From Ulota crispa (Eukaryota; Streptophyta; Bryopsida; Orthotrichales; Orthotrichaceae): a DNA stretch of 64,000 nucleotides. The stretch is taken from the NCBI GenBank assembly GCA_963920765.1, contig OY987245.1, positions 2,310,727 to 2,374,726 on the forward strand. The letters are read 5' to 3'. A model generated the notes under the pieces. The model saw only the letters and a list, made by a program, of their open reading frames with translations. It made no database searches and was not told the origin of the DNA. The translations under genes and the position numbers were made by a program. This document shows, piece by piece, positions 13,719 to 58,798 of the stretch; position 1 is the first letter of the stretch, and the number at the start of each line of letters is the position of its first letter.

Positions 13719-13943
13719 CCCTTAAACGTCTGAACATGCCACTCCAACCAATACAATACAAGGTATTTTTCTTGTGTTTGAAATGGATTCATACCTTTAC
13801 TACATTTCATATCAACAACAATGTTGGAGAATAGATCAATGTAATTTTAGTGAGCTATTTGAGATCTCAAATTACAACTTTTATTGGTAGCAAATGTCAA
13901 TTATACGACATTATATATATCATGGCCTATGGTCATTTAAGGG
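13719..13943 (-). mobile_element. TTAA element, subfamily C, copy 1
   Basis: A 225-base element between TTAA (13715-13718) and TTAA (13944-13947), with termini CCCTTAAACG...CATTTAAGGG. The interior is the reverse complement of copies at 15036, 33484 and 39542 (shared ATTGGTAGCAAATG and AATACAAGAAAAATA-type blocks). No ORF. Confidence 0.8.
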
Positions 13944-14055
13944 TTAAGGTGATGTGTATTCTTGCAAAGTTTTGGAAGAACGCTAGTTCAAAGCTAGCCA
14001 GTTGAAATGGAAACAAAGCGTTTGCAATTTATAAACATTGAAAAATTGGTTTTAA

Positions 14056-14890
14056 CCCCTAAAGGCCCAAGTGGCCTCTTAGGGGCCAAGTGGGGTTTTG
14101 GGTATGTACTTACAGCTAAACTATTTTGTGCAATTTTCTATAACTTTATTGAAGGTAGGGAATTCAATTACCTAGGTAGACATCTAATATTTTCTTCATT
14201 CCAACATTTATTGAAGAAGTTATGCATGAATTTTTGAAAAACAGTGTAGAATTAGGCAGCCCAAAAAATTGCATTTTTTTTAAATAAAATTTTGAAATCG
14301 GTTCTTTAGACTTATATATATGTGGGAAGCTTTGAATCATTCAATTCCAATTGATGAGATGAAAGTTATGAGAAGTTTTAGCTAGCTAGTAGGTACAAGA
14401 CTCCCAAACCTCCATTCCTTTTTCCCTTGTAAAATTTGGTGCTTTACTTTTTTGAGTGGTTTGTGTTTTTTTTTTGACTTTTTTGTTTCCAAGTTGTAGT
14501 AGACTAAGATTCCTTGGTTTTCACCATTTAGATCAAAGTAATTCAAATTTCTCAATTTTACATATGTCTTCCAAATTTGCCTAGTATATATGCAAATTTC
14601 ATGGCCTTATAGCATTGCAAGATTTTACAAAGTATGATTTGCACCTCCAATTCATTTAAAAATTCTCCCACACATACCCAATTTGATCTTTTACATGGGA
14701 AGAATTAAACCTCAACTTTGTGTAGAGCAATTTATTGATTTAGGAGTTGTCAAAGGCTTATGAAATTTTTGAGCAGCAAAGAAAAAAAAAATCTTTTCAG
14801 ATGTCAATATCTCATTCTTGTACATCTAGAAAGAGCTGATTTTTCTCCCACAAGTACCTTTACAAAAAAAAAAACTTGGGCCTTTAGGGG
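14056..14890 (+). mobile_element. TTAA element, subfamily B, copy 1
   Basis: Starts CCCCTAAAGGCCCAAG after TTAA (14052-14055) and ends CTTGGGCCTTTAGGGG at 14890. The right flank reads TAAAA, so one T of TTAA seems lost. Shared B landmarks are AGCTAAACTATTTTGTG, GGGAAGCTTTGAATCATTC and GATGAGATGAAAGTTATGAG. The 76-residue frame at 14007-14237 runs through the terminus and is not a gene. Confidence 0.8.
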
Positions 14891-15035
14891 TAAAATCTAA
14901 AAAGGATTATTTTCAATAAGAAATAGAGGAAATAACCAAAATTGTTCCTTGATGAACCGGTTCAATACGGGAATTGAAGTAAATCAACCAAAACCAATAT
15001 TCCTTGGACCTTGTGCTTGAACATTCTAGGGTTAA

Positions 15036-15269
15036 CCCTTAAAGGACAAAGCTACTATAATTCATACTATGTATGCTGCTATATAATTGGCATTTGCTAC
15101 CAACAAAAAGTTTTAATTTGGGATTTTGACTACCTCACTAGAACAAAATTGATCTATATTCTAACTTCTTTGTTGATCTCAAATATAATAAAGGTGTGGA
15201 TGCACTCCAAATACAAGAAAAATATTTTGTATTGTATTGGTTGCAAAGGGCTGCTTGGTCGTTTGAGGG
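15036..15269 (+). mobile_element. TTAA element, subfamily C, copy 2
   Basis: CCCTTAAAGGACAAAG... to ...GTTTGAGGG, with TTAA at 15032-15035 and 15270-15273. The right TTAA is the same four bases that begin the next element, so the two are directly abutted. The open frame 15011-15376 spans this junction and is spurious. Confidence 0.8.
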
Positions 15270-15273
15270 TTAA

Positions 15274-15676
15274 CCCTTTAACGACCGTGGTTGATTCTAG
15301 GGGTGGGCAATCCTTTGTATGGCCATTTGGGGCAAATTTTAAAACTATTGAATATAGATGTCTACCACAGATCTAACCGTACATATGGAAGTATCTTGCA
15401 AGGTTTAGTGTTATGCATCATGAATTATGCTCACTTTTTAGTTGTTATGGCCATCTTTTTGCATTTAGTGGTGTATTTTCAGCCGGTACTCTTTTAATTT
15501 TTTCAACCCTCTAACCACATGCCACCTGAGATTGACCTGGTTATTGTCCTAAACTCTTCACTTTCCAATTCCCCAAACCCATCCCTTTTGTCATGTCATC
15601 AAAATCCTTAACATGATCTCTACAAACTGAAAAGAGTCAAACTCGACCAGGAACTGGTCAACCAGTCGTTGAAGGG
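15274..15676 (+). mobile_element. TTAA element, subfamily I, copy 1
   Basis: Starts CCCTTTAACGACCGTGGTTG and ends CAACCAGTCGTTGAAGGG, with TTAA on each side (15270-15273 shared, 15677-15680). The interior is nearly collinear with 56325-56728 (GGGCAATCCTTTGTAT, AGTATCTTGCAAGG, CACATGCCACCT). No ORF of its own. Confidence 0.8.
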
Positions 15677-15680
15677 TTAA

Positions 15681-17186
15681 CAAGAAGAAAGCGGTGAGCG
15701 GTCACTACTGAGCGGTGACCGGGCACTGGCACATTCCTGTAAGAGAAAGAGAATAGTCGAGAAATATACAGGGGAGCTTGAAAAACGCCGGCAACGATGA
15801 CGTAATCTGTGCTTTTGCAGGGCGAAGATGCTGCTGGAGTGGGGGCGGTGAGCAGAAGACATGGTCCAGGGGGTGCACCTCATGTCCCGCATGCCCCCTA
15901 GTAACCTAGTTTGCTCATGTCCTGGATGCCCCCTATTTCAAGCCGTTGGAAGTGGCTCAAGAGCCATCCCATGGGCTTCTCTTGCTTGTGATCGGACAAC
16001 AGAACCAATGAATCATGTCCTTGCCATGTTTGGCTGGCACCGCTGCACCACCCATGCCTCACATCAAGGAATTTCTTTTGGTTTTTCATCTCCTCTGGTT
16101 TTTCATTCGTTGAGCGACACACACCTTAGAGGCTTAGACTGCAAACAGGTGAGGAAAAAATGATTCGAATCATCCTTGTGTGTACATGTATCCATAGAAT
16201 CTGCAACTTTCATCCAAATTTTGGCATTGCATCTTATGTTTGTTTTCAAGGGATATGGTGATTTCAACCATTTTTCCACCAAGTTTTTTTTAGTATTAAA
16301 GTAGCTAGTATAAAAACGAGGTAAGGTTGTCGCTAAACTTTACTTGAGAAAAAACTACCCTGTTTTCAGCTTTTTCTAGGGGAGCAACTCTAGGCCCTCA
16401 TATATGTGAAAGATATGTTATAGAGTGCATTCTACAAGTAAATTGAATGAACAACTAAATGGTAAGAGCTTTCAACCATGACGTATGTATCATTTTTGCA
16501 TAGTTGCATTTACCGTTGCACTCATCAAATATTTGGTTCTTTATCAATAAACATGGTTCCACACCATGTTCATGATAGTGTCAGATGACATACTAGCTTG
16601 CCAAAAGTGAGTTTTTTATTTCCAAGTTTAGTAGAAAGGAGGCCTCTATTTGTGAATTGTGAAGTGCATTTTGATTGATGGATAGCAAGTTATCATTGAA
16701 ACCACCCACCACCAAAACAAAATGAAAAGCAGATGAAAAGTCTTTACATACAAACAACCAAATTCATTATGTACTTGGTAGAATTTGATTGGCCTCGTAA
16801 AAAGGTATATACAAATATGATATTTTCATAGTTGCAATACTTGAAGCAAATAATTCAAAGTTCCTTTTTAAATGTATTATGGAATGAAAAACATTATGTT
16901 TCACAAATGGGTTTTTAATCTTTCTGACAAATGGTTTTTCCTTTGTGTTTCTGATTTTTATATATTAGTTAAGAGAGCTTGTTGTTATCGAAGGATTATA
17001 CTTTGAACTAGACAAATTGATATTTTTAAAGAAACTTCTCCTTAAATTACAAACTATTTGCAAAGGAACATTTTGGAGATCTACATTGTTCAAACACCAA
17101 GAAACTAACACAAGCTAACAATGTTTGAACAAGTGAAAGATGTTTTTGGATATTTGCACATGCGTGTACACACATATATAAATATA
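15681..17186. other. Intergenic, GC-richer at its left end
   Basis: 15690-16160 is clearly GC-richer than its surroundings and has overlapping open frames on both strands (15861-16163 plus, 15677-15892 and 15898-16122 minus) without recognisable motifs. It could be an old exon or promoter remnant. 16160-17186 is AT-rich with nothing recognised. Confidence 0.3.

Positions 17187-17682: not shown

Positions 17683-17683
<1 letters not shown>
17187..17683 (-). mobile_element. Non-autonomous Helitron, copy 1
   Basis: Reads on the minus strand. It shares with 40738-41238 and 60608-61093 the block ACATTCAATTTTACAAAAA, the CAATTGGTCTAGAATTTAAT series and the GGAGGGCGTTTGGTGT / CCCACTTAGTAGTA end. The 3' CTAG is degraded (CTAA at 17187-17190), and the 5' end merges with the adjoining AT microsatellite, so the right boundary is uncertain. 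The 104-residue frame at 17347-17661 lies wholly inside and has no Rep or helicase motif. Confidence 0.65.
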
Positions 17684-17728: not shown

Positions 17729-17731
<3 letters not shown>

Positions 17732-17752: not shown

Positions 17753-18178
17753 GGGAATTCATATGTGCATACAGGGGGTTGATATTTGCACTCCCCCCTG
17801 TGGGGTAAATTATAGATTCCTACCATCAAAAAGTTGAATTTGAGAATTTTTGAATTCAGATTTGGACTTAGAGACCATGCTTTAGCCTAGAACCATAAAA
17901 AAAATTGCAATCAAACAACACCTAGTGAAAAAGCTTAGTGAAAAAACTTAGATAAGAGGAAAATTGTTACTTTTACTTTTCTTTGTAAAAAAATATAATC
18001 TTTTTTACTAGGTGTTGTTCAATTGCAACATTTTTTTATAGTTTTAGACAAAATCATGATCTTTGAGTCCAAATCTGAATTCAAAATTCTCAAATTCAGC
18101 TTTTTGATGATTGAAATCTATAATTTACCTCCCAAGGGGTGTGCAAATATCAACCCCGGTGTGCACATATCAATTCCC
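17753..18178. mobile_element. GGGAATTGATAT foldback MITE, copy J1
   Basis: Termini GGGAATTCATATGTGCA... and ...TGCACATATCAATTCCC with long internal inverted symmetry (ACCATAAAAAAAATTGCAAT versus ATTGCAACATTTTTTTATAG). Flanks are TATAAAAT and TTTAAAAT, an 8-bp duplication with one mismatch, as expected of hAT-type insertion. The short frames here are not genes. Confidence 0.75.
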
Positions 18179-18707
18179 TTTAAAATCCGTCCTTTGGAAA
18201 ACGAAAATAAAAATTGACCAAATGAGATCGCATGAACTCATATTTGTTGACCCAAAACAGCATTTTTATGTTCTTCTGTTTGACCTTTGTAATTGAACAA
18301 AGAAAATCCAGATTATATCAAAAAAAAGGGATTTTTCTTGTATTTAAATAAAATCTGAAATTCTAAACTGAATATTTGTATTACATACTTTTTTTTATCA
18401 ACCTTGGGAACTTTTATTGATAAAAAATGAGCTCCAAAATTCTCAAAAGTCTAAATTGCAAAGGGTGGGCTGGGTGGCCTGTTGTTGAGGTAATACACTA
18501 GCAATTGGAACTTGTTTTTTTCAATTTTTAGAATTTTTGAGAATCACAAAGTGCAATTAGAACTAAAACTGATAAGAACTTTTTTCGCGCATTTTGTGGT
18601 CAAGTTAGTTCGGATTGTTTTCCAAGCCAAAGAAAGCACAAACAAATCAAGAATTTCAAAACAGACGACAGATTATAAGTAAACTGATTCCCATGACAAT
18701 TATTTAA
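18179..18707. other. AT-rich spacer, nothing recognised
   Basis: No ORF of interest and no element termini were found between the two J copies. Confidence 0.4.
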
Positions 18708-19082
18708 GGGAATTGATATATGTACACCGGGGTTGATATTTGCACACCCCCACCCCAGGTAAGTTTTAGATTCCTACCATCGCTGAATTTGAGAATGTTG
18801 AATTCAGATTTGGACTTAGAGACCATGATTTAGTCTAGAACCATAAAAAAAAATTGCAATTCAACAACACAAAAAATGTTACTTTTACTTTTGTTTATAC
18901 AAAAAGGTAGTCTTTTTCATTGGGTGTTGTTGAATTGCAACTTTTTATATGGATCTAAACTGAATCATGGTCTCTAACTCCAAGTCTGAATTCAAAATTC
19001 TCAAATTCAACTTTATAATGGTGGAAATCTAATTTCCTTGGGGTGTGCAAATATCAACCCCGATGTGCATATATCAGTTCCC
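18708..19082. mobile_element. GGGAATTGATAT foldback MITE, copy J2
   Basis: GGGAATTGATATATGTACAC at the left and an inverted, slightly diverged ...GTGCATATATCAGTTCCC at the right. The interior is nearly palindromic around TTTACTTTTGTTTATAC. Flanks TTATTTAA and TAATTGAA agree at 6 of 8 positions. The segment GAGACCATGATTTAG at about 18818 is the intact version of the site that holds a Helitron in copy J3. Confidence 0.75.
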
Positions 19083-20474: not shown

Positions 20475-20743
20475 AGGTAGGAGGCTCCAATTGCATTTGC
20501 GGTTTAAAGTAGCCCTCTACCAACCCTTTACCTTAGTTACGTTCATTGTTTAGGAAGGAGTGACATGTTCCTTCAAATATCTATTATTGTTATTGATGAG
20601 TTAAATTAAGTTAGCAAGTTAACCTAACTTGCTAAGCCTACTTAACTCATCAATAATATTAATAGATATTTGAAGGAACATATCACTCATTCTTAAACCG
20701 TGAACTCAATTAGAACCAGAACGCAATTGGAGCCTCCTACCTT
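20475..20743. mobile_element. Foldback element with GTAGGAGGCTCC ends
   Basis: GTAGGAGGCTCCAATTGC (20478-20495) is repeated inverted at 20723-20740. Inside, 20548-20698 is a near-perfect palindrome centred on TTAGCAAGTTAACC. No ORF. The class is unassigned because no clear target duplication is visible. Confidence 0.7.
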
Positions 20744-27887: not shown

Positions 27888-28839
27888 CCCCTAAAAGTTC
27901 AAGTCCTTCCTTTTATGAAAAGTCATTGAAAACTACCACTTTGGAGGAAAGAGTACATAGTAGGAAAAAAGGTTTTTTTTTGGGAAATCCAACCGTAGGA
28001 TCTTGCCCTAAACTATGGGAGGTACATGTGGGAAAAAACCCACCTCATTCTAGAGGTAGAGAATTGAGATTTGACATCTAAAGCAAAAAAAAAAGTTTTT
28101 TCCCTTGTTGCCCAAAAATTTCAAAAGCCTTTGACCGCTCCTACATTAAAAAAAAATGCTCTACTCAAAATTGAGGCTTCTTTTTTCCATTTAGAAGACC
28201 AAATTAGGTATGTGTAAGAAAATTTTCAAATGAATTGGAGGTGTAAAACATACTTTGTAAAATCTTGCAATGCTGCAAGGTCATGAAATCTGCATATACA
28301 CTAGGCAAAATTGGAGGCTTTATGTAAAACTCAAAAATTCAAATCACATTGATCCAAACCGTAAAAACAAAGGGTTCTTAGCTTATTACAACTTGGGAAA
28401 AAAACTAATCAAAAAACAAATACTCAAACTACTCAAAAAAGCACCAAATTTTACAAGGGGCAAAAGGAATGTAGGTTTACAGGTCCCATACCTACCCACA
28501 AACTAACTTCTCACTCATTAATAAAAATTGAATGATTCAAAGCTTCTCACATATACAAAAATCTAAAGAACCAATTTGAGACATATTAATATATTATTAA
28601 ATGCAATTTGTAAAGAAGTTTTTTGGGCTGCCAAGATTGCCTGCCCTCCTCTATTTTTTAGATATTCATAAATAACTTCTTTAGTAAATGTTGGAATGAA
28701 GAAATAATTAGATGCCTGCGTAGGTCTTGGAATTCTCTAACTTCAATAAAAGTTTCAAAAAATCACACAAACTAGTTTGGCCATAAGTACATGCCCAAAA
28801 TCCATTTGTCCCCGGCGAAGACAATTGGGCCTTCAGGGG
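27888..28839 (-). mobile_element. TTAA element, subfamily B, copy 3
   Basis: CCCCTAAAAGTTCAAGTCC after TTAA (27884-27887) to ...TTGGGCCTTCAGGGG at 28839; the right TTAA is degraded to GAGA. Reverse-orientation B blocks (CTGCAAGGTCATGAAATCTG, TTACAAGGGGCAAAAGGAAT) are present. The frames at 28270 and 28708 lie inside it. Confidence 0.75.
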
Positions 28840-29704: not shown

Positions 29705-30420
29705 TCCCTAAAGACCCAAGTGGCCCCTTGGGGGTCAAATGGGGTTTTGAGCATGTAATTACAGCTAAACTATTTTGTGTGAGTTTCTAAAACTTTTATG
29801 GAAGATGGGGAATTCAAAGATCTTTGTGGGAATCTAATTTTTTCTTCATTTTGACAATATTGAGGAAGTTAAAAATGAATTTTTGGAAAATAAGGGAGGG
29901 CAGGCAACCCAAAAGCTTCTTTAAAAATGGCATGTTTTTAAAATAAAATTATAAAATAGGTTCTTTAGACTTCTATATACATGGGGAGCTTTGAATCATT
30001 CTATTTTGATTGGTGAGATGAAAGTTATGAGAAGTTTTAGTTTGTTGGTAGGTATAGTTTCTCTCAAAACCACACCTACCCACAAACTAAAACTTCTCAT
30101 AACTTTCATCCCGTCAATCAAATTGAATGATTCAAAGCTCCCCACATATGGATAAATCTAAAGATCCTACTTCATGTTTTTATTTTTTTTAAATGTAATT
30201 TTTAAAGAAGTTTTTGGGCTGCCCGCCTCCCCTTGTTTCCAAAAATTCATTTTTAACTTCTTCAGTAACTATCAAATGAAGAAAAAATCACATGCCCACA
30301 AAGATTTTTGAATTCCCCATAATTTGTAAAAGTTTCATAAAAATACACAAAATAGTTTAGCTGTAAGTACATGCCCAAAACCCTACTTGGCCCTCGAGGG
30401 GCCACTTGGGCCTTTAGGGA
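29705..30420. mobile_element. TTAA foldback element, subfamily B, copy 4
   Basis: CCCTAAAGACCCAAG... to ...CTTGGGCCTTTAGGGA between TTAA at 29701-29704 and 30421-30424. Almost the whole element is one inverted repeat: two arms of about 355 bases meet near 30062 (AGTTATGAGAAGTTTTAGTT in the left arm, AACTAAAACTTCTCATAACT in the right). No ORF. Confidence 0.85.
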
Positions 30421-31264: not shown

Positions 31265-31505
31265 CCCCTGAGGGCCCCAATGACCACTATGTGGTCGCTT
31301 AGTTTTGAAAAATGTCCATGTTTGACTCTTATCCTCTTCTTAATGGTAAAGTCAAAGGACTTGTACTTTTTCATGTACCTCCAAGCATGTGTCTACTACC
31401 ACTCAAAAAAAATTCAAGCTATTTGACTCTACTTAGGTAATACTTTTATTGGACTAAGTATACAAGGGTACAGATTTGAGTGAATATGGCATGGGCGCTC
31501 ACGGG
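31265..31505. mobile_element. Short TTAA element, subfamily N
   Basis: CCCCTGAGGGCCCC... to ...GGGCGCTCACGGG between TTAA at 31261-31264 and 31506-31509. It is only 241 bases and shares its right TTAA with the next element. Confidence 0.65.
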
Positions 31506-31509
31506 TTAA

Positions 31510-32540
31510 CCGCTAAAGGTCCAAACATTGTTTTTTGGTAACATAGCAATTTTGGGCAGCAAACTAAAAATAGATTTTGCATTTTTTTCTTTAAATTTTT
31601 TACACAAATGTGCTCAAGGAGTAGCTTTAAGGTCCAATGATTTTCATAACTATTGACTACACGGTTCAAAATTTATTGCATGATATGAAGTTTTGCTTGT
31701 TAGGCAGCCTAGGTAGCTCAAAAAACTTTTAAAATTTACTTTTATAAAATTGAAAAAAGAAAAATTGGTTCTTTAGATTTATATATACATGGGAAGCTTT
31801 GAATTGTTCCATTTTGATCAATCAGAAAAGAGTTATAAGGAGATTTTATTTATGGGCAATTGTGAATCCTCTACTTTGAAATAAACTTTCAAGTTCTTTA
31901 TTTTACTCAATTTTCTATACTTTGGAAGAAAAAAAATCCAAAGGATGTAGATTTTTTAATACAACATTATCACCATTGGATTGGCATTTTCATTTTAATA
32001 ATCAAACTCTTAACAATTTAGTGGTTTGAATCATTGTCTACTTCTTTTTACTTACTTTTTTTCCCGTGTGATGTACAGTGGATGGACAAAAGTGTTTAGT
32101 CAAGACTTGTTCACTTACAAACTCACAAGTTTGTAAGTGAACAAGTCTTGACTAAACACTTTTTTCCATTCAATGTACAATTCCAAATGGTTTGAAAATT
32201 TTCCAAGTGTCTATCCCAGCAACTTGCCTTGAAGAATGAATCCAAAGAGTTACAACCATTTTGAAAGTTTTTTCATACAAATATGACCTTCTGAAGTGCA
32301 ATTGCTTGGACTTTTGCAAGTACAAAAATTGATTTTTTGTCAATTCAAACTCAAATATCTAATGATCTACAAGACAGATATTTCTGATTTTTTTTTTCAT
32401 ATCTTTTTATACTGGTGCACTACAAGATCTTATGAATTCATGTGTCCAAAAAATGGTTTTTTTTCTAAAACTTGGTACTTTTACCAAAAACGACAGTTTT
32501 CGAGCGGTTTTGGTGGAAACTTACTCAAAAGCCTCAGGGG
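31510..32540 (+). mobile_element. TTAA element, subfamily E, copy 1
   Basis: CGCTAAAGGTCCAAACATTG... to ...GCCTCAGGGG between TTAA at 31506-31509 and 32541-32544. Collinear with 52808-53740 (TAGCAATTTTGGGCAGC, GGAGTAGCTTTAAGG, GGGAAGCTTT). It carries a 95-base hairpin insertion, 32078-32172. The frame 32296-32544 is inside it. Confidence 0.8.
32078..32172. mobile_element. 95-bp hairpin MITE nested in E1
   Basis: Flanked by ATGTACA on both sides (32071-32077 and 32173-32179); the homologous place in 52808-53740 is uninterrupted. 32088-32163 is a perfect hairpin with 36-base arms and a 4-base loop. The outer ends GTGGATGG and CCATTCA are imperfect inverted repeats. A 7-8 bp duplication is compatible with hAT-type insertion. 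Confidence 0.8.
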
Positions 32541-32811: not shown

Positions 32812-33034
32812 CCCCTCAAGGGCATGAACGCCTTTGCGGCCGTATGTATGGCTGTATGTACAGACGTATTTGAGTTATTCTGAGGGCTTTTCAAAAAAAA
32901 TTATGCATCCACCATCATACAATTCTTCAATATGTATAGTTGTAACACTTAATTTTTAATTAATTCAAACTTTTGAATGTTTGTTGCAGCCGTATTTGGT
33001 ATCGCAACTCTAAAGCCCAAGGGCCCTTTAGGGG
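32812..33034. mobile_element. Probable short TTAA element
   Basis: The left end CCCCTCAAGGGCATG follows TGAA (a one-base change from TTAA), and the right end GGGCCCTTTAGGGG precedes TTAA (33035-33038). 223 bases, with no resemblance inside to subfamily C or N. Confidence 0.5.
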
Positions 33035-33483: not shown

Positions 33484-33709
33484 CCCTTAAACATCCATAG
33501 GGTATAGTATATATGCTGATGTATAATTGTCATTTGCTACCAATAAGAAATTTTAATTTGGGATCTTAAGTAGCTCACTAGAACCGCATTGATCTATTCT
33601 CCAACTTCTTTGTTGGTCTCAAATGTAGTAGAGGTGTGGATCCATTCCAAATACAAGAAAAATACCTCGTATTGTACTGATCGGAGCAGCACTCTCAAAC
33701 ATTTAGGGG
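33484..33709 (+). mobile_element. TTAA element, subfamily C, copy 3
   Basis: CCCTTAAACATCC... to ...ACATTTAGGGG between TTAA at 33480-33483 and 33710-33713. The interior is near-identical in order to the copy at 15036 (ATTTGCTACCAA, TTTTAATTTGGGATC, CCAAATACAAGAAAAATA). The minus-strand frame 33594-33803 crosses it and is not a gene. Confidence 0.85.
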
Positions 33710-35934: not shown

Positions 35935-36898
35935 CCCCTAAAGGACCAAGGGTGTTTTTGAGAAAAAATCTCAGAAACTGCCAACTTTTAGTGCATTGCC
36001 CAAAACTGAAATTAAAAATCTTTTTTCTCAATTTCAACCATACAAAAGTGTGCAAAACAGATAAAATAATATGTGCAAAAAAATTCAGCCCATTTGACCA
36101 AGTGGATTGTAAGATCATAATGTTTGAAGTGAGAAAAACTACTTTTTTTTATTCATGCAAAATAAGGTCAGCAGACTTTGACCCTTCCTAGAGTAAAATT
36201 TTTGCTCTACACAAATTTGAGCTTTTTGACCATTCACAAGTATATGATGTTAGGTTCACTCACAAAAAATTTCAGATGCAAAAGTACAATCTAGCTTGTT
36301 CTAAATCATCCTCCAATACAAAAAGGTTAAGGGAATTGGCAATACATTAGTCATTCTTTCATGATTTCTTGTGCAATGAAAATTTTTTTTATTTGAAATT
36401 GGAATGGTGAAAAGTTAGAGACAAATGTTTGGAATATGTGAAAAAAAAAATTCGAGAGCTTTGGATTTATAAATTGAAAGATGATAGGGCTTGAAGTTAG
36501 AGGATTCTTTTTTTCCTGAAACTGCCCAAACACAGTTAACAAAGTTTGACTCCCTTCAAAATGTGATGTGAGAGCTTAAGTTTTTTTTTTTTTTTTTTTT
36601 TTTTTTTGACAATTTTACATTTTTTTTTAATAACATGTTTACCAAATTTCAAAAGTTGATGAGAGTTTTAGCATAAGATTCTCCAAAGATTCCCAAACTA
36701 CCCAAGTTGCCCAATTTCTTTTGGGCAACATAACTTTTGAACTAGGCATCCAATTGGGGAAAAAACTACATTTCCACTTAGGAAATACTTATTTACACCT
36801 TGTGTAACAATTTTGAGAAAATCAAATAAAAATTAACTCCATATGACCCTACCCAAGTTCTCAAGTGGCTGTTGAACAACCACTTGGTCCTTTAGGGG
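35935..36898. mobile_element. TTAA element, subfamily X
   Basis: CCCCTAAAGGACCAAGGG... to ...ACCACTTGGTCCTTTAGGGG between TTAA at 35931-35934 and 36899-36902. It contains a T27 tract at 36581-36607. The overlapping frames 35879-36191 on both strands are by-products. Confidence 0.8.
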
Positions 36899-36957: not shown

Positions 36958-37864
36958 CCCTTCAAGGACCACACCCATTTTCACAAAATCCACTAAAAAC
37001 AAGGGTTGTAAGCTTAGATGTGCAATTGAATCAAACATGGACTCAATCTGAATAACCCAACTGTATGAATGCAAAAGACACCTTGCTTGTTGTATTGTAT
37101 CAAAATTTCAGCTAGACCTACTATTGGAGGTGAAATATGATAATGATTGAATGAGCCATATGCAGAAAACCTTTAGTGTCTCATGCTTGTGTGGTTTTGA
37201 ATGTTAACTCTCCATGCAAGTTTTGATTGAGAAGAACCTTACATTTCTAGAAAGCAAGGTTTCCCACCTTTCCAACAAGACTAGTTTCACACAAAATAAA
37301 CAAAAATAGCAATCATAGGGTGTAACTAAGTGGACAAAAAGGGTAAAAAATTCCACTTTCTTTGCTACCCTAAAACGATTCTACAAAAAGTTTGATACCT
37401 ACTATGGAAAATCCAATTGGTGAAAACAATCAAGAATTGGCCTTAAGTGTAGGATAACAAATTTTAAAGATGATACAACAACACCATTTCAATAGACCTT
37501 CAAATACCACAATTATACTACTATTGTATATAAAAACAATACAAGCGTATTTCTTAAACAACTTGAATTATTTAGGATTGTGCAATTGAAATTTGACATT
37601 TGTCTTGCGTATTTGATGTTGTGTTGTAGCTTTGATCCATTTTGACAAAAAGAATGGATACGCATTTTGAAGCCATGCCGTATAAACACCATTATTTGTC
37701 AACTCACATACCCAATTCCATTGTTATTTTTTTAGATGGATGCAAAAATCTTGTGATCACATGCGTTCTTCAAGACCAAACTCTAAATTATTGAGTGGTT
37801 TCAATTTATAAGCCAACTAAACCACTCCTTGTGACCTAAATATGGTTGCGTGGTCCTTAAAGGG
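36958..37864 (+). mobile_element. TTAA element, subfamily F, copy 1
   Basis: CCCTTCAAGGACCACACCC... to ...GTGGTCCTTAAAGGG between TTAA at 36954-36957 and 37865-37868. Reverse complement of 10608-11511. No ORF. Confidence 0.8.
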
Positions 37865-39541: not shown

Positions 39542-40353
39542 CTCCTAAAGGATCAAGCAACCCTTTACAACTATTACAATACGGGGTATTTTTCTTGTAT
39601 TTGGAGTGCACCCACACCTTTCCATTTGACATCAACAAAGAAGTTAGAATATAGATCAATGCTGTTCTAGTGAGGTAGTCAAGATCCCAAATTAAATTGT
39701 TTTGTTGGTAAAAAATGCCAATTACACAGTAGTGTATATACTATGTACTCCCTCTGTCCCATTATAAATCTCCAAAAAACTTCTCCATGAGGGATTAACT
39801 GTATTTTAAATCATTATGCTAGTTATACATGCATCCTAGAATCCATATACTACCTACCAAATATTTGCAAAATCTCAAGTTTTTATGTTGTTATTTAGAC
39901 ACCCAAATTCCATGCAAAAAGTACCATATTTGTGCATAGCTTGTGAAGGCCGCCGGCTCCTCATTATTTTAGTCTTTGTATTAATGACACATGCATTCTA
40001 GAATCAATATACCATCTACCAAATGTATGCAAAATCTCCAACTTTGATGTTGCCATTTAGGCACCCAAATTCCATGCAAAAAGTACCGAATTTGTACATG
40101 TTGCTAGCTCCTCATTATTGGTGATTTAAAAATTAGTAGCAGCAATGTTACCTCATATGGGCAAGACCAAGCTTGTTATGAGAAAAATGCTCTTTAATTG
40201 CTTAACTTACCCCCATAAGATCATTGGACATGACAAATGCTTTCTTAGAAATTGAAATTAATAGGGAGCTTTTTAGTGAGACAAAAACTATGCCTAATTT
40301 GGAGCTTTATATTGGGACAGAGGGAGTATTATAGTAGCTTGATCTTTTACGGG
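39542..40353 (-). mobile_element. TTAA element, subfamily C, copy 4 (interrupted)
   Basis: TCCTAAAGGATCAAGC follows TTAA (39538-39541), and GATCTTTTACGGG precedes TTAA (40354-40357). Reverse-orientation C sequence (GGTATTTTTCTTGTATTTGG, TTAGAATATAGATCAATGC). A Stowaway element of 579 bases is inserted near its right end; without it the length is about 230, as in the other copies. Confidence 0.8.
39748..40326. mobile_element. Stowaway-type MITE nested in C4
   Basis: CTCCCTCTGTCCCATTATAA... to ...TTATATTGGGACAGAGGGAG, the characteristic Stowaway (Tc1/mariner) terminus, between TA and TA (39746-39747 and 40327-40328). The interior holds a direct duplication of about 162 bases (CACCCAAATTCCATGCAAAA occurs twice). 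Confidence 0.9.
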
Positions 40354-40616: not shown

Positions 40617-41525
40617 GGGAATTGATATGTGTACCACACCTTTTGAACTGCTTTATCACACCCGGGGTAAATTTTAGATTTCTACCATCAAAAAGCAAAT
40701 TTGAGAATTTGGAATTCAGATTTGGGTTTAGAAACCACTAGTATGCAGGCACATGCTTTGTATGAATTGGACATGTACGGGTAATGCAACATTCAATTTT
40801 ACAAAAAAAAAACATCTCACAAATCAATTGGTTTAGAATTAAATCCTAATGTATTTTACAAAAAGTCAATATCTCACAATTGGTTTGGAATCTAAACTTG
40901 ATGCACCATCATTTTGGTTCTTTTTGGAAACCAAAAGTAGTAATTCTCCTCATCACAATGCTCTTATTTTATACTTTGGTAGGGGGCGTTTGGTGTTTTG
41001 TTGTTTTTCTAACACATGATTGGAGGGTATTTGGTGCTCCATATTTGAGGCATCCTTTATGTTTCAACTTCCACCAAAAAGTTATAGAAGATTTTGAAAA
41101 AAGACATGGTTGGAGGGTGCTTGGTGTTTTGTATCTAGGACATTTTTTATTGCTTCAACTTCCACCCAAAAAGTTCTAGAAGGTTCTAGAAAAGGGTGCG
41201 AAGTCAGTGAGGGTTATGCTCCCACTTAGTAGTATAGATGGTTTAGTCTAGAACCATACAAAAAGTTGCAATTCAACAACACCCAATGAAAAAGTTTATC
41301 TCTATTTACAAACAAAAGTAAAAGTAACTCTTTTCTCTCTAGATAAACTTTTTCATTGGGTGTTGTTGAATTACAACTTTTTGTATGGTTCTAGACTAAG
41401 TCATGGTCCCTAAGTCCAAATCTGAATTCCAATTTCTCAAATTCAGCTTTTATGGTAAAAATCTAAAATTTACCCCGGGGCTGTGATACAATAGTTCAAA
41501 GGGTGTGATACACATATCAATTCCC
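40617..41525. mobile_element. GGGAATTGATAT foldback MITE, copy J3
   Basis: GGGAATTGATATGTGTACC... to ...ACACATATCAATTCCC with a perfect 8-bp duplication CTATTATA (40609-40616 and 41526-41533 region). A Helitron of 501 bases is inserted within it; net length is about 408. Confidence 0.85.
40738..41238 (-). mobile_element. Non-autonomous Helitron, copy 2, nested in J3
   Basis: On the minus strand it begins TCTATACTACTAAG and ends GCATACTAG, inserted between host A (40737) and host T (41239). The uninterrupted site is seen in copy J2 as GAGACC-AT-GATTTAG. Near the 3' end is the imperfect hairpin region corresponding to CATGCA..TGCATG in copy 3. The 99-residue frame inside (40880-41179) shows no Rep or helicase motif. 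Confidence 0.85.
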
Positions 41526-42261: not shown

Positions 42262-42803
42262 CCTCTAAACGCCCAATCAACCATTTTCTGGTCATTGCTT
42301 GTTTTTTTTGGGTTGCCCAAGACAAAAGAACTTTTTTCAAATTTTTTTTTTTTTTTTTTTGTAATAGAAAATCAAGTCTAATTTCCAGCTTAACTTGAAT
42401 CATGACAATCCAAATTAAACTCCACCAAGGAGAAAATTTCAAAGCCAAATACTTCAATATTTGCTAGTGTTGTAAAATTTACTACTTTGGGAAACTAATG
42501 ATGTTCTATCCTTTCAAAAGATTGCATTTTTAAAATTTAGGACATAATGACTGTTTTTAACCAATCATACCAAATTTTGAAACCTATGAATAAAATTTGT
42601 AATTTTGGTGAATATTAAATAGTAAATACTTCTAAATTCATTAAACAAAAATCCAAAACTTTTGTTGAGTGTTTGACCGTATGGATAATCACTAAGCATT
42701 ATAATTTTTATTTTCTCTTTTGAAGCAAACATCATCAAAGTTAAAAAAAGTACCATTTTGAACACATCTATGTTTTGCCCTTACCCCCTTGGGCCTTTAG
42801 GGG
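42262..42803. mobile_element. TTAA element, subfamily Q
   Basis: CCTCTAAACGCCCAATC... to ...TTGGGCCTTTAGGGG between TTAA at 42258-42261 and 42804-42807; 542 bases. The frame 42090-42398 runs across its left end and is spurious. Confidence 0.75.
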
Positions 42804-44888: not shown

Positions 44889-45221
44889 TGCTACAGGTTC
44901 AAGCATATTCTAAACCCTTATCATGGATGCCCTCACCAATTGCGTCGGTTGTCATTTTCCACGTAGTAGCACTTTGTAGCCCCAAAACTTAACATACAAA
45001 GAAGTATAATCTTCAATAATTTGCACGTGTGTGCATCCACATCTAATCTTGCTACTCACAAATTTTGAGATGAATTAGAGGCTTCTAAAATTTTGAAAAA
45101 TCAACAAATAGCAACCACGTGCCAAAGAATGAGATTTTGACATCACATGTTGTTTGATCATATGTTTTAATCTTCCATCTCCCATTATCAATTATTCCAA
45201 AAATTTGCAAGTCACTTTCTA
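44889..45221. other. Spacer, nothing recognised
   Basis: No ORF or element termini were seen. Confidence 0.35.
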
Positions 45222-45222
45222 A

Positions 45223-45346
45223 GGGTATGTTCACACTTGGTATTAGGAGGGGTATTAACAATATGAATGCAATCTAAAGGTGGGTATAGATGCATCTAAT
45301 TTTCCTTCTGCTACTACCACTCTTAACACCAAGTGTGAACATGCCT
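45223..45346. mobile_element. Short MITE with GGGTATGTTCACACTTGG ends
   Basis: AGGGTATGTTCACACTTGG... is repeated inverted as ...CCAAGTGTGAACATGCCT. Flanking TA on both sides is possible. About 124 bases with no ORF. Confidence 0.65.
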
Positions 45347-45471
45347 TATTCCACTATTTTCAATGGTTGCTTTCTATGGATCATCCAATTGACTAAGATA
45401 CAATGCATCAAAGTTATAGGTCTCAAAATACCCTAATTTGGGTAAAAATAGCTTGGGTGCGTAGGGGTTAA

Positions 45472-46388
45472 CCCCTAAAGGACCAAGCAAAATTTTCACC
45501 AAAAACTCTTCAAAATTGCCATTTTTAGAGCATCAACCAAATTTGAATACAAAAATATTTTTATGCATATGTGACCATAGGATCTTGTAGAAGAATGGTT
45601 TCATTCAAAAGATGTGGAAAAAATTTCAGAGTTTCCCACCACGTGGATTGGAAGTTAGAATGGTTTGAACATTCAAAATCGTCTTGTGAAAAATTGGGCA
45701 GCTACCCTACAAAAGGAGAATTTCCTAAGGAAAAAAGGCCATGTGGGCGGTGCTTCTCAAAATTCCTTGTTCCACCTAAGTAAAGTACATGTCAAAAAAG
45801 TTTCAAATTATTTGGAGTTGTATATCATATGGAAAAAAATTAGTAAGTAAAAAGAAAGAGAGAATGATTCAAAACACAAAATTGTTAAGAATTTAATTAT
45901 GGAAATGAAAAATGCCAATCCCAATGGTCATAATGTTTTCATAAACAATATTCATCCTTTGGTTTTGTTTTTTTTCCAAAATGTTGAAAATTGAGCAAAA
46001 TAAAGGACTTCAAAGTTTATTTTGGAGTAGAGAATCTATAATTGCCCGCAAACAAAAAATCCTCTTAAGTTTCATCTTGTTGATCCAAACATAATGACTT
46101 GAAGCTTCCTACTTTCACATAAAACTCCTAAACCAATTTAAAATTTTAGTTTTTGAAGAAAGTAAATTTTAAAAATCTATCCAGGCTGCCCAATGAATGT
46201 AAAAAACAACATATCAGGCCATAACTTTTTACTCATAATTCCAAATGTCATAAAATTTAGTGCATATGAAATATAAACCTTACCCCCACATTCTGTTAAA
46301 ATTTCAACCTAAAATATGAAAAGCTCCAATCAAAGGTACCTGACCAAAATCGCTATGTTCCTAAAAAATGGTTATGGTCCTTTACGGG
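45472..46388 (+). mobile_element. TTAA element, subfamily G, copy 1
   Basis: CCCCTAAAGGACCAAGC... to ...GGTCCTTTACGGG between TTAA at 45468-45471 and 46389-46392. Nearly identical along its length to 50502-51422 and related, in reverse, to 31510-32540 and 52808-53740 (AATCCCAATGGT, AAGAATTTAATTATG). GTAGGGG just before its left TTAA may be the right end of yet another element. The frames at 45571 and 45665 are inside it. Confidence 0.85.
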
Positions 46389-47442: not shown

Positions 47443-48054
47443 GAGCATCCCCAATGTACCCAGAACCCTAGCACTGAAAATCCTGTCAAACCATCTCTGA
47501 CTGCGGCTCACTTGCAAAGTAGGGCCATTTCCCAACCTCCTAGCCCCCAATGTAAACAAGTTACGACACTCACTACACATAGTTTTTTAATTGTTTATGC
47601 CTTTTTAAAATGTTTATGTGAGGAAATTCATGTCAAAAACATTTGAAATTACGTCAGTGTCAAAGAATCAGACACTCTAGAGTGATATGTAGGGGAGGGG
47701 CTCTTGCATGGGGAGCCCTAAAAAATGTAGTTCCAAGTACCTGTTGCATTGGGGCCCTAATTTTCACTCAAGCTTGGCATAACAATATGTAAAAACTTTT
47801 CCGTGCCTTGTTACCGCTAAGGTAACCCGCTCTAATGCCAACCATGTGCCTAATCCCATACAAATGTACAAGATACGTAGATTTCAGGTATAAAATCTAG
47901 ACAAGCCCTAGATAGCTTATCTTCTGTGACAGAAAAGATAAGCTATCTAGGACATGCCTAGATTTTAAACCTGAAATCTATGTATTGTGTACATTTATAC
48001 GGGATTAGGCACATGGTCGGCATTAAAGCGGGTTACCTTACATTGGGGATGCTC
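47443..48054. mobile_element. Tourist/PIF-like MITE H5
   Basis: GAGCATCCCCAATGTA... to ...TACATTGGGGATGCTC, flanked by TAA at 47440-47442 and 48055-48057. The interior resembles H4 in reverse (AATTGTTTATGCC, GGGGCTCTTGCATGGGG). A 220-base palindrome fills its right part. Confidence 0.8.
47818..48040. repeat. 220-bp near-perfect palindrome
   Basis: Two arms of about 105 bases (47818-47922 and 47933-48040), matching at roughly nine of ten positions by eye, around CTGTGACAG. Arms begin TAAGGTAACCCGC and end GCGGGTTACCTTA. If transcribed it would form a long hairpin. Confidence 0.85.
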
Positions 48055-52807: not shown

Positions 52808-53740
52808 CCCCTAAAGGTCTAAACAATGCTTTTTGGCAACATAGCAATTTTGGGCAGCTCACTACAAATGGATTTTTCATTTTTTTTCTTTGAAATTATC
52901 ACACATGATGTGTCCAAGGAGTAGCTTTAAGGCCCATCAAATTTCATAACTTTTGACTTCATGGTTCAAAAGTTATTGCATGATATGTAGTTTTCTTTGT
53001 TCGGGGGTAGCCCAGGTAGCTCAAAAACTTCTTTTAAAAATTACATTTTTTGAATTTTGTTTTTTGAAATTGGTTCTTTAGATATATATATCCTTGGGAA
53101 GCTTTAAATCATTTAGTTTTCATCAATGAGATGAAAGTCATGAGGAGATTTTGTTTGCGGGCATTTATGGATTCCCTACTCTAAAAAAACTTTTAGGTCC
53201 TATGTTTTACTCAATTTTTAATATTTTGGAAAAAAAATAAAGGTAAAGTATGTAGATTGTTTATTACAACATTTCAACCATTGGGATTGGAATTTTCATT
53301 TTTCATAATTAAATTCTTAACAATTTAGTGTTTTGTATCATTCTCTACTTCTTTTTACTTACTATTTTTTTCCTATGTGCTATACATTTCCAAATGATTT
53401 GAAATTTTTCAAGTGTGTACCTGACTTGCCTTGAAGAATGAATACAAAAAATTACAACCATTTTGAAATTTTTTTCATACAAACATGACCTTGTGAAGTG
53501 CAGCTGCCCGGATTTTTGCAGGGACAAAAAAAGACTTTTTGCCAATTCAAACCCAATCACCTAACAATCCACATGGCAAAAATTTCTGAATTTTTTTCCA
53601 CATATTTGGATACTAGTGTACTACAAGGTCTTATAGTTAGATGTGTCCAAAAAGAACTTTTATCTATTATTTGATACTTGCACTACAAATGGTAGTTTTG
53701 GGGCAGTTTTGATGAAAACATAGTCAAAACCCTTTAGGGG
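52808..53740 (+). mobile_element. TTAA element, subfamily E, copy 2
   Basis: CCCCTAAAGGTCTAAAC... to ...AACCCTTTAGGGG between TTAA at 52804-52807 and 53741-53744. It provides the uninterrupted reference for the hairpin insertion in copy 1. The reverse complement of its middle is clearly related to subfamily G. Confidence 0.85.
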
Positions 53741-54577: not shown

Positions 54578-55501
54578 CCCCTAACAGACTATTGTCCCCT
54601 TGAGGGACAATTCAGACTTTGGGCATGTACCTATGGCAAAACCAATTTTTATGATTTTTTGAAACTTTTGAGGATGGTGGGAAATTCAAAGATGTCTTTG
54701 CACATCTAATTTTTTCTTCATTTTGACATTTATTGAAGAAGTTATGCTTGAATTTTTGAAAAATAGAAGAAGACGGGCAGCCCACAAACTTTAAAAAAAA
54801 TTCATTTAAAACAAATAAAAAACCAAAATTGGTCCTTTGGATTATATATATGTGGGAAGCTTTGAGTCATTCAATTTTCATTGATGAGTGAGAAGTTTTA
54901 GTTTGCGGGTAGGTGTGGAACTCCCAAACCTCCATTCCTTTTTCCCCTTGTAAAATTTGATGCTTTAATTTGTTCTTTGACTTTTTTTTCTTTCAAGTTG
55001 TAGTAGACTAAGATTTCTTGGTTTTCAATGTTTGGATCAAAGTAACTCAAATTTCTCAATTTTACATCAATCCTCCAATTTTGCCTAATGTATATGCAAA
55101 TTTCATGGCCTTATAGCGTTGCAAGATTCTACAAAGTATGATTCACACCTCCAATTCATTTGAAATTTCTCCCACACTTACCTAATTTGGTCTTCTACAT
55201 GGAAAAAATACACCTCAACTTTGTGTAGAGCAATTTTTTTGATTTAGGAGAGAAGTCAAAGGCTTCTGAAATTTTTAGGTAGTACAGGATTTTTTTTTTT
55301 TTCCACTTTAGATGTCAATATCTCACTCCTCTACATCTAGAATGAGCTGATTTTTCCCACAAGTACCTCCCATAGTTTAGGGCAGGATCCTACGATTGGA
55401 TTTTTTTTCAAAAGAAATAACTTTTCTATCTTTCTATTCATTACCCTAGAGGTGGCAATTTTCAATGACTTTTGCAAAAAATGGGCTCAGTCCTTTAGGG
55501 A
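54578..55501 (+). mobile_element. TTAA element, subfamily B, copy 5
   Basis: CCCCTAACAGACTATTG... to ...CAGTCCTTTAGGGA between TTAA at 54574-54577 and 55502-55505. Collinear with 14056-14890. Its right TTAA is also the left TTAA of the next element. Confidence 0.85.
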
Positions 55502-55505
55502 TTAA

Positions 55506-56223
55506 CCCCTAAAGGACCAAGCCCCCTTTTTGGGGACAAATGGGATTTTGGGCACTTACCTATGGCTAAACTATTTTGTGTGATTTTTTGAAACTTTTAT
55601 GGGAGATGGAGAATTCAAAGATTTGTGTGGGCATCTAATTTTTCCTCATTCCGACATTTATTGAAGAAGTAAAAAAAGAATTTATGAGAATTTTAGTTTG
55701 GCGGGCAACCCAAAAACTTCTTTAAAAATTGCATATTTAAAAAATAAAAAGTCAAGGTTAATTCTTTAGACTTATATATATGTGGGAAGCTTTGAATCAT
55801 TCAATTTCAATTGATGAGATGAAAATTATGAGAAGTTTTTGTTTGCGTGTAGGCATTGTTTTGAGATTCTCCACACCTACCCGCAAACTAAAACTTCTCA
55901 TAACTTTCATCTCATCATTTAGAATTGAATGATTCAAAGCTTCCCACATATACGTAAGACTAAAGAAGTAACCTCAAATTTTTGTTTTTTAAAAATGCAA
56001 TTTTTAAAGAAGTTTTTGGGCTGCCCGGCAAACCAAAATTCTCATAAATTCATTTTAAACTTCTTCAACAAATGTCAAAATGAGGTAAAAATTAGATGCC
56101 CACACAAATCTTGGAATTCTCCATCTTCCATAAAATTTTCAAAAAATTACACAAAATAGTTTAGCCATAAGTACATGTCCAAAATCCTGAAAGTCCCCCA
56201 AGGGGACTTTGGTCCTTTAGGGG
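55506..56223. mobile_element. TTAA foldback element, subfamily B, copy 6
   Basis: CCCCTAAAGGACCAAGCC... to ...TTGGTCCTTTAGGGG, with TTAA 55502-55505 (shared) and 56224-56227. Like 29705-30420 it is essentially one long inverted repeat with arms of about 350 bases that meet near 55865. The frame 55929-56159 lies in the right arm. Confidence 0.85.
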
Positions 56224-56324
56224 TTAAAAGCTATGTGACCATTTGGGGGGGCTTTTTTTAGTAGCACCATCTAGAAACCTTGAAGTTCAAGATTGTAAGG
56301 TTACAATTTTATTTTGATGTTTAA

Positions 56325-56728
56325 CCCTTTAACGATCGCGGTTGATTTTGGAGGTGGGCAATCCTTTGTATAGCCATTTGGGGGAAGTTTTAAAATTATT
56401 GAATACAAATGTCTACCACAGATTTGCCCGTACAGATGGAAGTATCTTGCAAGGTTTAGTGTTATGCATCATGAATTATGCTCACTCTTTAGTTGTTATG
56501 GCCATCTTTTTGTATTCATTGGTGTATTTTCAGCGGGCACTCTTTTAGTTTTTTCAACCCTTTGGCCACATGCCACCTTAGATTGGCTTGGTTATTGTCC
56601 TAAACTCTTCACTTCTCAATTCCCCAGACATATTTCCTTTGGCTAATCACTAGATTCAATGCTATTCTCTTTATATGCAAGGAAAAGGGGCCAAATCAAC
56701 CACAAAAAGGTTGACCAATTTAAAAGGG
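56325..56728 (+). mobile_element. TTAA element, subfamily I, copy 2
   Basis: CCCTTTAACGATCGCGG... to ...GACCAATTTAAAAGGG between TTAA at 56321-56324 and 56729-56732. Collinear with 15274-15676. The right TTAA is shared with the next element. Confidence 0.85.
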
Positions 56729-56732
56729 TTAA

Positions 56733-57655
56733 CCTCTAAAGGACCATGGCCTTTATATTGTCAAAAGACATTCAAATCTGCTACTTCTATGGAAAAGAGT
56801 AAAAAAGTTTGAAGATTGGTCTTTTTGCATATCTAACCATAGGATCTTGTACTAGACTTGTATAAAAATGTGTTATTCAAAATTCAAAAACTTTGACCGC
56901 ACAGATTGCAAGATATTTGCGTTGAAAGTGTAAAAAACAAGCGTTTTTGCACCTTACAAGACTAAATTATTCGACTTTGTACTTTTTTAACTTAAATATT
57001 TTGCACCATGGAGTTTTGAGGTTTATTTTTGTATGGTGGGGAATTGAGTTGAGAATCTTTGGATAAAAACCAAAACAAAAAATACTTAATTTTTGTTCTT
57101 AAAAAAACATTATATAGAAGAAGGTTTGAGATTGAACAAAATCTTACGTTGTTAATGACCTTGCAATGGAATTAAATCACAATAATCCCAATGGTGAGAT
57201 TGTTCTAGCAAGCAATCTTCACCCTTTCCAATAGACTTTTTTGCAAAAATGTTAAATTTGCATTCAAAAATGAAGTTTATAAGTTGTTTTTTCAGAGCAA
57301 AACAACACCTACCTGCAAATTAAAACTTCTCATAACTTTCATCTCATCTATCAAAATTGAATGATTCAAAGCTCCCCACATCTATATAAGTCTAAAGAAC
57401 CTATTTCAGATTTTTGTTTGAAAAAAATAATTTTTTTTAAAGAAGTTTTTGGCTGCCAGATCTCTCTTGTTTTTTATAAAATCATGCATAACTTCTTCAA
57501 TAAATGTTGGAATGAAGTAAAAATTACATTCCCACATAGATCTTTGAATTCCTCACCTTCAATAAAAGTTTCAGAAGATCACGCAAAGCAATTTAGCCAT
57601 AGGTACATGCTTGAAATCCCAAAAGCCCCCCAAGGGGACTTTGGTCCTTTAGGAG
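56733..57655 (+). mobile_element. TTAA element, subfamily M (B-like right arm)
   Basis: CCTCTAAAGGACCATGGCC... to ...TTTGGTCCTTTAGGAG between TTAA at 56729-56732 and 57656-57659. The left 550 bases are unlike B, whereas the right 350 bases are a B arm (CTTCTCATAACTTTCATCTC onward), a chimaeric structure. The frame 57361-57735 is in the arm. Confidence 0.8.
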
Positions 57656-57869
57656 TTAAAAATGATCTTACAAAGACAATTCAAAAACTTCAAAACTACC
57701 TTCTAAAAACAAGAAAAACACCCTTGGGCATTTAGGAGTTGAGAGCTTTAGCACTTGCTGCTTGCACTTTGTGGTTTTTATTCTAAACAAGATGTTTCTA
57801 ACCCTACTATTAAGTTTATGAGTTTTGATATTCAAATCCAAATCACCATAACCAAACATCAGATATTAA

Positions 57870-58798
57870 TCCGTAAAGGATCATGCCCATTTTTCTATAA
57901 AAGCCACTAGAAACTACCACTTTGAGGGAATGAGTTGAAAGTTAAGAAAAATAGTTTTTTTGAAATTCCAACCACAGATCATACCCTAGACTATAGGAAG
58001 TACTTGTGGGAAAAAAATTAGTTCATTTTAAATGGAGAAGAATGGGATATTGAATTTTGAAGTGTTTAAAAAAAGTTTTGTTTTCCTTCCTACCCAAAAT
58101 TTTAGAAGCTTTTGACCAATCTTATAGCAAAAAATTGATCTACACAAAGTTGAGGTTCAATTTCTCCATATAGAAGACCAATTTAGGTGTGTGTGGGAGA
58201 ATTTTCAAATGTATTGGAGGCCGTACAACATATTTCAAAAAATCTTTGAGTCCCAAAAGGTCACAAAATTTGCAAATATACTAGGCAATACTTGAGGATT
58301 TTTGTAAAAATTAGCAATTTGAATTTTGCTAATTCAAATGGTGAAAACCAAGAAATCTTAGTTTATAAAAACTAGGATTTTTTTTTTTTAATTACGCAAA
58401 TTGGTCAAAAAGTTAAAGTACCAAATTTTACAAGGGGCAAAAGGAATGGAGGGTTGTGAGTGCCCCAAAATAGGCTCCTTCCACTCCACTCTCCTTTGTC
58501 CAAGTTTCCACACCTTGTGCCCGTACGACCAAAAGGGCTGACCCTCTTTGGAGTCAACAACCACTTACAAAGGAGAGGCCCTACCCAAACTGCCCCTCAA
58601 TCTTCCCCTAGTTTTGATAAATTCTTATATAACTTCTTTGTGGAATGTTAAAATGAGGATTTTTTAATGCCCAAGTAGGTTTTTGAATTTCCCACCTTTG
58701 ATAAAGGTTTCAAAAGATCATAGAAATTAGTTTAGCCATGGGTACATGCCCAAAATCCCATGTGTCTTTCAAGGGGATAGTTGGTTCCTTTAGGGGGG
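57870..58798 (-). mobile_element. TTAA element, subfamily B, copy 7
   Basis: TCCGTAAAGGATCATGCCC follows TTAA (57866-57869). The right end is GGTTCCTTTAGGGGGG before TTAC, so the right TTAA is altered by one base. Reverse B blocks are present (AAGGGGCAAAAGGAATGGAG). Confidence 0.75.

Follow-up and report, generated by a model that had tools for sequence, protein, structure and literature searches.

Which transposon superfamily gave rise to the many short, TTAA-flanked elements in a 64,000-nucleotide stretch of the genome of the moss Ulota crispa (GenBank assembly GCA_963920765.1, contig OY987245.1, positions 2,310,727 to 2,374,726 of the forward strand; 'the window' below refers to this whole stretch)? 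A first-pass annotation, made from the letters of the window alone, had described about 25 elements with CCC(C/T)TAAAGG-like ends and ascribed them to the piggyBac superfamily, a workhorse of genome engineering that is known mainly from animals, fungi and protists. We conclude, with a probability of roughly 95%, that the window elements are non-autonomous piggyBac transposons, i.e., piggyBac miniature inverted-repeat transposable elements (MITEs), and that they reside in a land plant's nuclear genome. This genome carries thousands of such short elements, together with full-length piggyBac-type transposons that most likely moved them.

The end motifs are far commoner in the window than chance would allow. 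The pattern TTAACCC[CT]TAAAGG, with at most two mismatches, occurs 45 times (starts from 13715 to 57866), compared with 0-3 times in each of 20 dinucleotide-preserving shuffles and five times in the reversed window. Exact TTAACCC-type ends number 13 in the window and 18,588 in the genome as a whole (275 Mb, 157 contigs), where the same pattern read backwards is found three times. By hand, and with the flanks known, we picked 22 two-ended elements of 223-1031 bp each, which add up to 14,978 bp, or 23.4% of the window (Table 1). The earlier figures of about 25 elements and 27 percent were thus fair, if slightly above what can be paired. TTAA is present on both sides of 18 of the 22 elements, and the remaining four have one altered side (TAAA, AGAC, TGAA or GGTT), so that the annotation's picture of mostly TTAA-flanked elements, a few with one changed flank, holds. 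The curated ends begin with CCC or CCT in 37 of 44 cases and otherwise with TCC (4), CTC (2) or CCG (1); because the ends were partly selected for this motif, their CCY/RGG termini are not an independent test. Single-linkage clustering of blastn matches of at least 150 bp places the 22 elements in eight clusters, the main one with 11 members; the annotation's families are thus not all 'internally unrelated', and half of the elements belong together. Unpaired single ends are also present, e.g., at 10608, 15031, 25136, 25862, 30913, 42924, 43014 and 53847. Eight long open reading frames of the window gave no match to Pfam. Two looser searches were set aside. An end scan found 29 + 31 ends, compared with 14 + 14 in the reversed control, so loose end scores are no evidence, and pairing by internal score gave 65 pairs where the reversed control gave 14, and only 32 of the 65 were flanked by TTAA at either end.

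The annotation had proposed to look in the same genome for a piggyBac transposase with matching termini, and such enzymes are encoded there. DDE_Tnp_1_7 (PF13843) gave at least 120 matches (best E 1.3e-73; 116 of 528 first-look candidates scored) and none in 14 control genomes, which are a weak control, being apparently prokaryotes. Three sampled DDE regions reach 202-218 bits, against a Pfam cut-off of 22.4, and a sampled region aligns with the PDB entries 6x67 (E 1.6e-25) and 9c0f (2.7e-21), the Trichoplusia ni (T. ni) piggyBac transposase and piggyBat, respectively. When 20 DDE domains are aligned, D occupies the columns ..vtvDe.. and ..MrgvD..DQ.. in at least 18 of the sequences and the column ..dnfF.. 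in at least 12; these are presumably the three catalytic aspartates of the T. ni enzyme. By eye, several copies also have a cysteine-rich stretch at the C-terminus. Amino-acid identity among the 20 domains is 28-84%, and the median of 36% implies that many transposase lineages coexist. What the annotation took for one 'active piggyBac-like transposase' is thus a set of many diverged transposases.

Two-ended elements were sought in 20 DDE loci, taken at 10 kb each. Ten of these loci (L019, L022, L023, L024, L027, L028, L034, L035, L037 and L038) yielded such elements, 5.0-6.3 kb long, with TTAA-flanked CCC.. ends of the same kind as those of the window elements. TTAA is on both sides in seven, and the elements of L027, L028 and L038 are one base off on one side. 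Two independent copy pairs confirm the element boundaries for two families: L019 and L028 are 90% identical across 5,029 bases, from TTAA to TTAA, with the similarity stopping within 1 bp of TTAA, and L034 and L035 likewise match from TTAA to TTAA, in two pieces. L022 and L055 have their right end in common. Downstream of 12 of 16 further DDE matches there is an exact TTAACCC-type end, a count that proves little alone, because such ends abound here and it has no control.

Furthermore, several window elements have terminal sequence in common with DDE-bearing elements. For the elements at 15274-15676 and 56325-56728, similarity to the L038 element is found at both of its ends (E 8e-23, 5e-19, 6e-29 and 3e-15), over 151 + 232 and 151 + 248 bases, respectively, at 64-67% identity with permissive scoring; stricter scoring still recovers both L038 ends for both elements, in shorter pieces. 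Matches to both ends are the pattern of internal-deletion derivatives. A second connection involves three DDE elements, e54 (C8:11102709), e44 (C5:24512207) and e45 (C9:12442616), which resemble one another directly after the DDE domain and once more towards the 3′ end. Their 3′ likeness runs up to the TTAA end over 492 bases for e54 and e44, and over 506 bases for e54 and e45. The best matches of window elements to this 3′ part cover 397 bases (element at 14056), 561 bases (27888), 532 bases (54578) and 638 bases (57870), with 71-79% identity across the matches. Other elements of the main cluster have at most 20-132 tip bases in common with the three DDE elements, or no detectable match.

Because the curated pairs had been chosen with their flanks known, we assessed the target site on single ends that were picked from their internal 16 bp alone, without regard to the flank, in 288 kb of sequence (the window plus loci L001-L008 and L019-L038). 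At a score of at least 16, TTAA precedes 39 of 44 ends, and the reversed control has no ends at all. The corresponding counts are 65 of 81 at a score of at least 15 (control: 3 ends, none with TTAA), 94 of 141 at 14 (22 ends, none with TTAA) and 119 of 287 at 13 (127 ends, 3 with TTAA). At the strictest score, conservation of the successive bases of TTAA is 0.98, 0.98, 0.93 and 0.95, i.e., about equal, as expected of a strict 4-bp target.

This result bears on the rival explanation that survives best, namely that the elements are PIF/Harbinger (Tourist-like) MITEs with a 3-bp TTA or TAA duplication, whose ends only resemble TTAA..TTAA. Tourist MITEs are common in plants, and the Harbinger-type domain DDE_Tnp_4 has 150 matches in this genome. 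However, a 3-bp duplication is at odds with four positions that are conserved about alike, and the DDE elements that have ends and terminal sequence in common with the window copies carry a piggyBac domain. The single locus inspected among the 150 lacks TTAACCC-type ends, which is a weak argument, as its own ends were not located either. Empty sites with a 3-bp duplication, named in the annotation as the observation that would speak for Harbinger, were not found among the paralogous sites examined. We therefore regard a Harbinger origin as very improbable.

Paralogous empty sites were obtained by comparing the joined flanks of those among 41 elements that had enough flank with the same 288 kb. 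A copy in L027 is an empty site of element 42262-42803, with exactly one TTAA at the junction, and window positions 45351-45218 are an empty site of an element in L037 (8679-9585), again with exactly one TTAA. Three cases could be read cleanly, of which these two keep a single TTAA and the third has CCAA. When the joined flanks of 42262-42803 were compared with the genome, 41 matches resulted (40 of 485 candidates scored), two of which are the two halves of the query site in the window itself; judged by their alignment spans, the 39 other matches listed all cross the junction, at 78-93% identity. These comparisons bear out the TTAA duplication that the annotation had expected empty sites to reveal. 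Empty sites alone do not separate piggyBac from Tc1/mariner-like elements, since a TA duplication within a TTAA target gives an identical empty-site sequence; the outer T and A would then reflect a preference at the target, and the inner A..T would belong to the terminal repeat. In that case the first T of the flank would be expected to be less constant than the bases inside it, but its conservation is 0.98 compared with 0.93-0.98, and the transposase-bearing elements are piggyBac, which leaves Tc1/mariner with an even slimmer chance than Harbinger. Kolobok and Sola3, other superfamilies whose target duplication is TTAA, of the same length and sequence, are just as implausible, given that the elements with ends and terminal sequence common to the window copies carry the piggyBac DDE domain.

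Several observations weigh against the assignment of the window elements to piggyBac. No PF13843 match lies inside the window, with 116 of the 528 first-look candidates scored, and stops are present in 110 of the 120 PF13843 rows (the ten stop-free rows come from eight loci). Ten of the 20 DDE loci have no convincing end pair; for the other ten, the end pairs were hand-chosen from candidates and are not always the top-scoring ones, and their terminal repeats agree at 11-16 of the first 20 bases. Terminal repeats are weaker still in three window elements (8/20 in 31510-32540, and 9/20 in both 33484-33709 and 56325-56728), and the selection of the 22 window pairs was informed by their flanks. 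With regard to kinship, e44 and e45 are similar for 366 bases that end ~155 short of the element end, the left ends of e54, e44 and e45 were not found in the 1.6-kb stretches searched, and descent from a DDE-bearing element is indicated for a minority of the window elements. Finally, the empty sites of an L002 element, in L027 and L008, both read CCAA, not TTAA, a reading that a base change in the host repeat could explain but that does not demonstrate TTAA, and the empty-site matches for 54578, 14056 and L033/L022 are not clean.

Under the piggyBac assignment, diverse transposons of ~5-6 kb in the same genome would encode DDE transposases that bind the CCCYT..-type (TTAACCCYTAAAGG-type) ends of the short derivatives, excise these derivatives and insert them at TTAA, duplicating it. 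The chemistry would be cut-and-paste, by analogy with known piggyBac, and it is presumably these enzymes that moved these particular copies, with an activity that appears to lie in the past rather than the present. The age estimate comes from one family, that of 45472-46388, for which 40 of 4,471 first-look candidates were scored: 39 of these 40 matches lie elsewhere, are full-length or nearly so, and are 89-91% identical. This star-like divergence suggests a single old burst, with very recent copies absent among the scored matches. If the ratio of 13 exact ends to 22 elements in the window is taken as typical for the 18,588 ends in the genome, the load would be, as a rough extrapolation from a single window whose density of exact ends is ~3 times the genome mean, ~31,000 elements or ~21 Mb, which is 8% of the genome.

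The full-length elements have a further feature. A second conserved coding stretch lies upstream of the DDE domain in nine of the 20 loci, in diverged piggyBac elements (Table 1), and follows the rough pattern ..NCL.E..L..LP......WRYLFYRQIAKILGW... Two representatives gave no match to Pfam, and a profile of eight fragments gave none to the PDB. A Pfam scan of L036:1-1500 also found no match, but the region scanned ends outside the conserved upstream motif and is thus uninformative about it.

Like T. ni piggyBac and piggyBat, the moss elements combine a DDE_Tnp_1_7 domain with a TTAA target and, mostly, CCC..GGG outermost bases, and the cysteine-rich C-terminal stretch of several copies is a further similarity. 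They differ from both in their land-plant host and, in nine of the 20 loci, in the upstream coding stretch, and from the T. ni element, whose length is given as 2,472 bp, in their size of 5-6 kb. The piggyBac MITEs of animals (those of corals, and mPok of Daphnia) are short, non-coding, piggyBac-related and accompanied by TTAA duplications. The short moss elements resemble these in size, TTAA flanks and relationship to piggyBac, but occur in a land plant and with 18,588 exact ends in 275 Mb. They share with the Tourist, Stowaway, Mutator, hAT and CACTA MITEs of plants a short, dispersed and non-coding nature and terminal inverted repeats, and differ from them in the TTAA target and piggyBac source.

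A 2025 catalogue of MITEs in 207 plant genomes distinguishes five main superfamilies plus a special group; neither 'piggyBac' nor 'TTAA' appears in its main text (PMC12550479). According to a 2023 review, PiggyBac is among the MITE superfamilies identified in angiosperms (PMC10004981), and a class tally for a fern gives 1230 piggyBac copies with 122,417 bp (PMC6890710). Occurrence in plants is stated in general terms (PMC10813416, PMC10140906), or piggyBac is included among plant superfamilies (PMC10794571); one moss genome paper does not mention it (PMC11704416). A further hit (PMC10619864) concerns 'piggybacking'. Among the open-licence papers listed, no title or abstract describes a piggyBac system in a land plant, although this falls short of proving absence. 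The superfamily itself is established, and its occurrence in plants has been stated in general, but there seems to be little documentation of how numerous and diverse it can be in a land plant.

We lean, with less confidence than for the assignment itself, towards a broader interpretation, in which the moss genome houses a land-plant radiation of piggyBac: old, deeply diversified lineages with an extra, undescribed protein stretch upstream of the transposase domain would have seeded tens of thousands of MITEs and been a major shaper of this moss genome. If true, the many diverged families and the large MITE load would widen the documented range of the superfamily and offer a natural source of plant-adapted transposases. 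It also suggests that MITE pipelines built on five plant superfamilies can misfile such elements. Furthermore, it becomes testable whether piggyBac entered mosses once, in ancient times, or by repeated horizontal transfer.

Table 1. Elements, shared target sites and related features (window positions unless a locus is named; flanks are given as left/right)
Position	Strand	Feature	Basis or relationship
13719..13943		piggyBac-type non-autonomous element, 225 bp, TTAA/TTAA; clusters with 15036, 33484, 39542	curation, clustering
14056..14890		non-autonomous element, 835 bp, TTAA/TAAA, main cluster	in common with 3′ part of DDE-bearing elements: as much as 397 bp, and separately 36-39 bp at the tip
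15036..15269		non-autonomous element, 234 bp, TTAA/TTAA; right TTAA common with next element	curation
15270..15273		one TTAA between two abutting elements	curation
15274..15676		non-autonomous element, 403 bp, TTAA/TTAA; internal-deletion derivative	both L038 ends matched (151 + 232 bp)
27888..28839		non-autonomous element, 952 bp, TTAA/AGAC, main cluster	match of up to 561 bp to 3′ end of DDE-bearing element
29705..30420		non-autonomous element, 716 bp, TTAA/TTAA, long inverted arms	curation, inverted-repeat scan
31265..31505		non-autonomous element, 241 bp, TTAA/TTAA; right TTAA common with next element	curation
31506..31509		one TTAA between two abutting elements	curation
31510..32540		non-autonomous element, 1031 bp, TTAA/TTAA; terminal repeat weak (8/20)	curation
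32812..33034		non-autonomous element, 223 bp, TGAA/TTAA	curation
33484..33709		non-autonomous element, 226 bp, TTAA/TTAA; terminal repeat weak (9/20)	curation
35935..36898		non-autonomous element, 964 bp, TTAA/TTAA; clusters with copies in L002, L003, L021	curation, clustering
36958..37864		non-autonomous element, 907 bp, TTAA/TTAA; clusters with copies in L024, L032, L033, L037	curation, clustering
39542..40353		non-autonomous element, 812 bp, TTAA/TTAA	curation
42262..42803		non-autonomous element, 542 bp, TTAA/TTAA, within dispersed repeat; other copies among the matches listed all empty	empty-site comparison
45218..45351	-	empty-site counterpart (single TTAA) of element L037:8679-9585	joined-flank comparison
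45472..46388		non-autonomous element, 917 bp, TTAA/TTAA, main cluster	89-91% identity in the 39 matches elsewhere in the genome, of 40 scored
50502..51422		non-autonomous element, 921 bp, TTAA/TTAA; 91% identity with 45472-46388	curation, genome search
52808..53740		non-autonomous element, 933 bp, TTAA/TTAA	curation
54578..55501		non-autonomous element, 924 bp, TTAA/TTAA; right TTAA shared	final 455-532 bp match 3′ end of DDE-bearing elements
55502..55505		one TTAA between two abutting elements	curation
55506..56223		non-autonomous element, 718 bp, TTAA/TTAA, inner inverted arms of 215 bp	curation, inverted-repeat scan
56325..56728		non-autonomous element, 404 bp, TTAA/TTAA	both L038 ends matched (151 + 248 bp)
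56729..56732		one TTAA between two abutting elements	curation
56733..57655		non-autonomous element, 923 bp, TTAA/TTAA	curation
57870..58796		non-autonomous element, 927 bp, TTAA/GGTT	match of up to 638 bp to 3′ part of DDE-bearing element
L019, L024, L025, L027, L028, L029, L035, L036, L037		conserved upstream coding stretch	~1.6-2.6 kb upstream of DDE domain

Four pairs of neighbouring elements abut with one common TTAA (at 15270, 31506, 55502 and 56729; the window has 451 TTAA sites), and look as if a later insertion had taken the duplicated site of an earlier element. The commonest element end, found for example at window position 35935, is CCCCTAAAGG. It contains CCCTAAA, which we take to be the plant-type telomere repeat unit, and this is probably a coincidence. 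Long inverted repeats are also present outside the curated elements, at 17794-19009, 20534-20712, 41238-41404 and 47818-48040, the last being a foldback with 111-nt arms that are 88% complementary and separated by a 1-nt spacer.

With regard to host genes, 56 matches to chlorophyll a/b-binding proteins were obtained in the same genome, and three of these genes were sampled. For two, the nearest structures are chains of the same PDB entries (7ksq/7kux, 7xqp and 8htu, then 6l35), which are presumably photosystem I of the moss Physcomitrium patens and point to a probable moss host; the third has its best match in 9vfj (a chain matched in at least two domains), followed by 8htu and 7xqp. Eight of the strongest chlorophyll a/b-binding matches form a light-harvesting gene cluster within 0.4 Mb (G000 C4:21391382-21771811).

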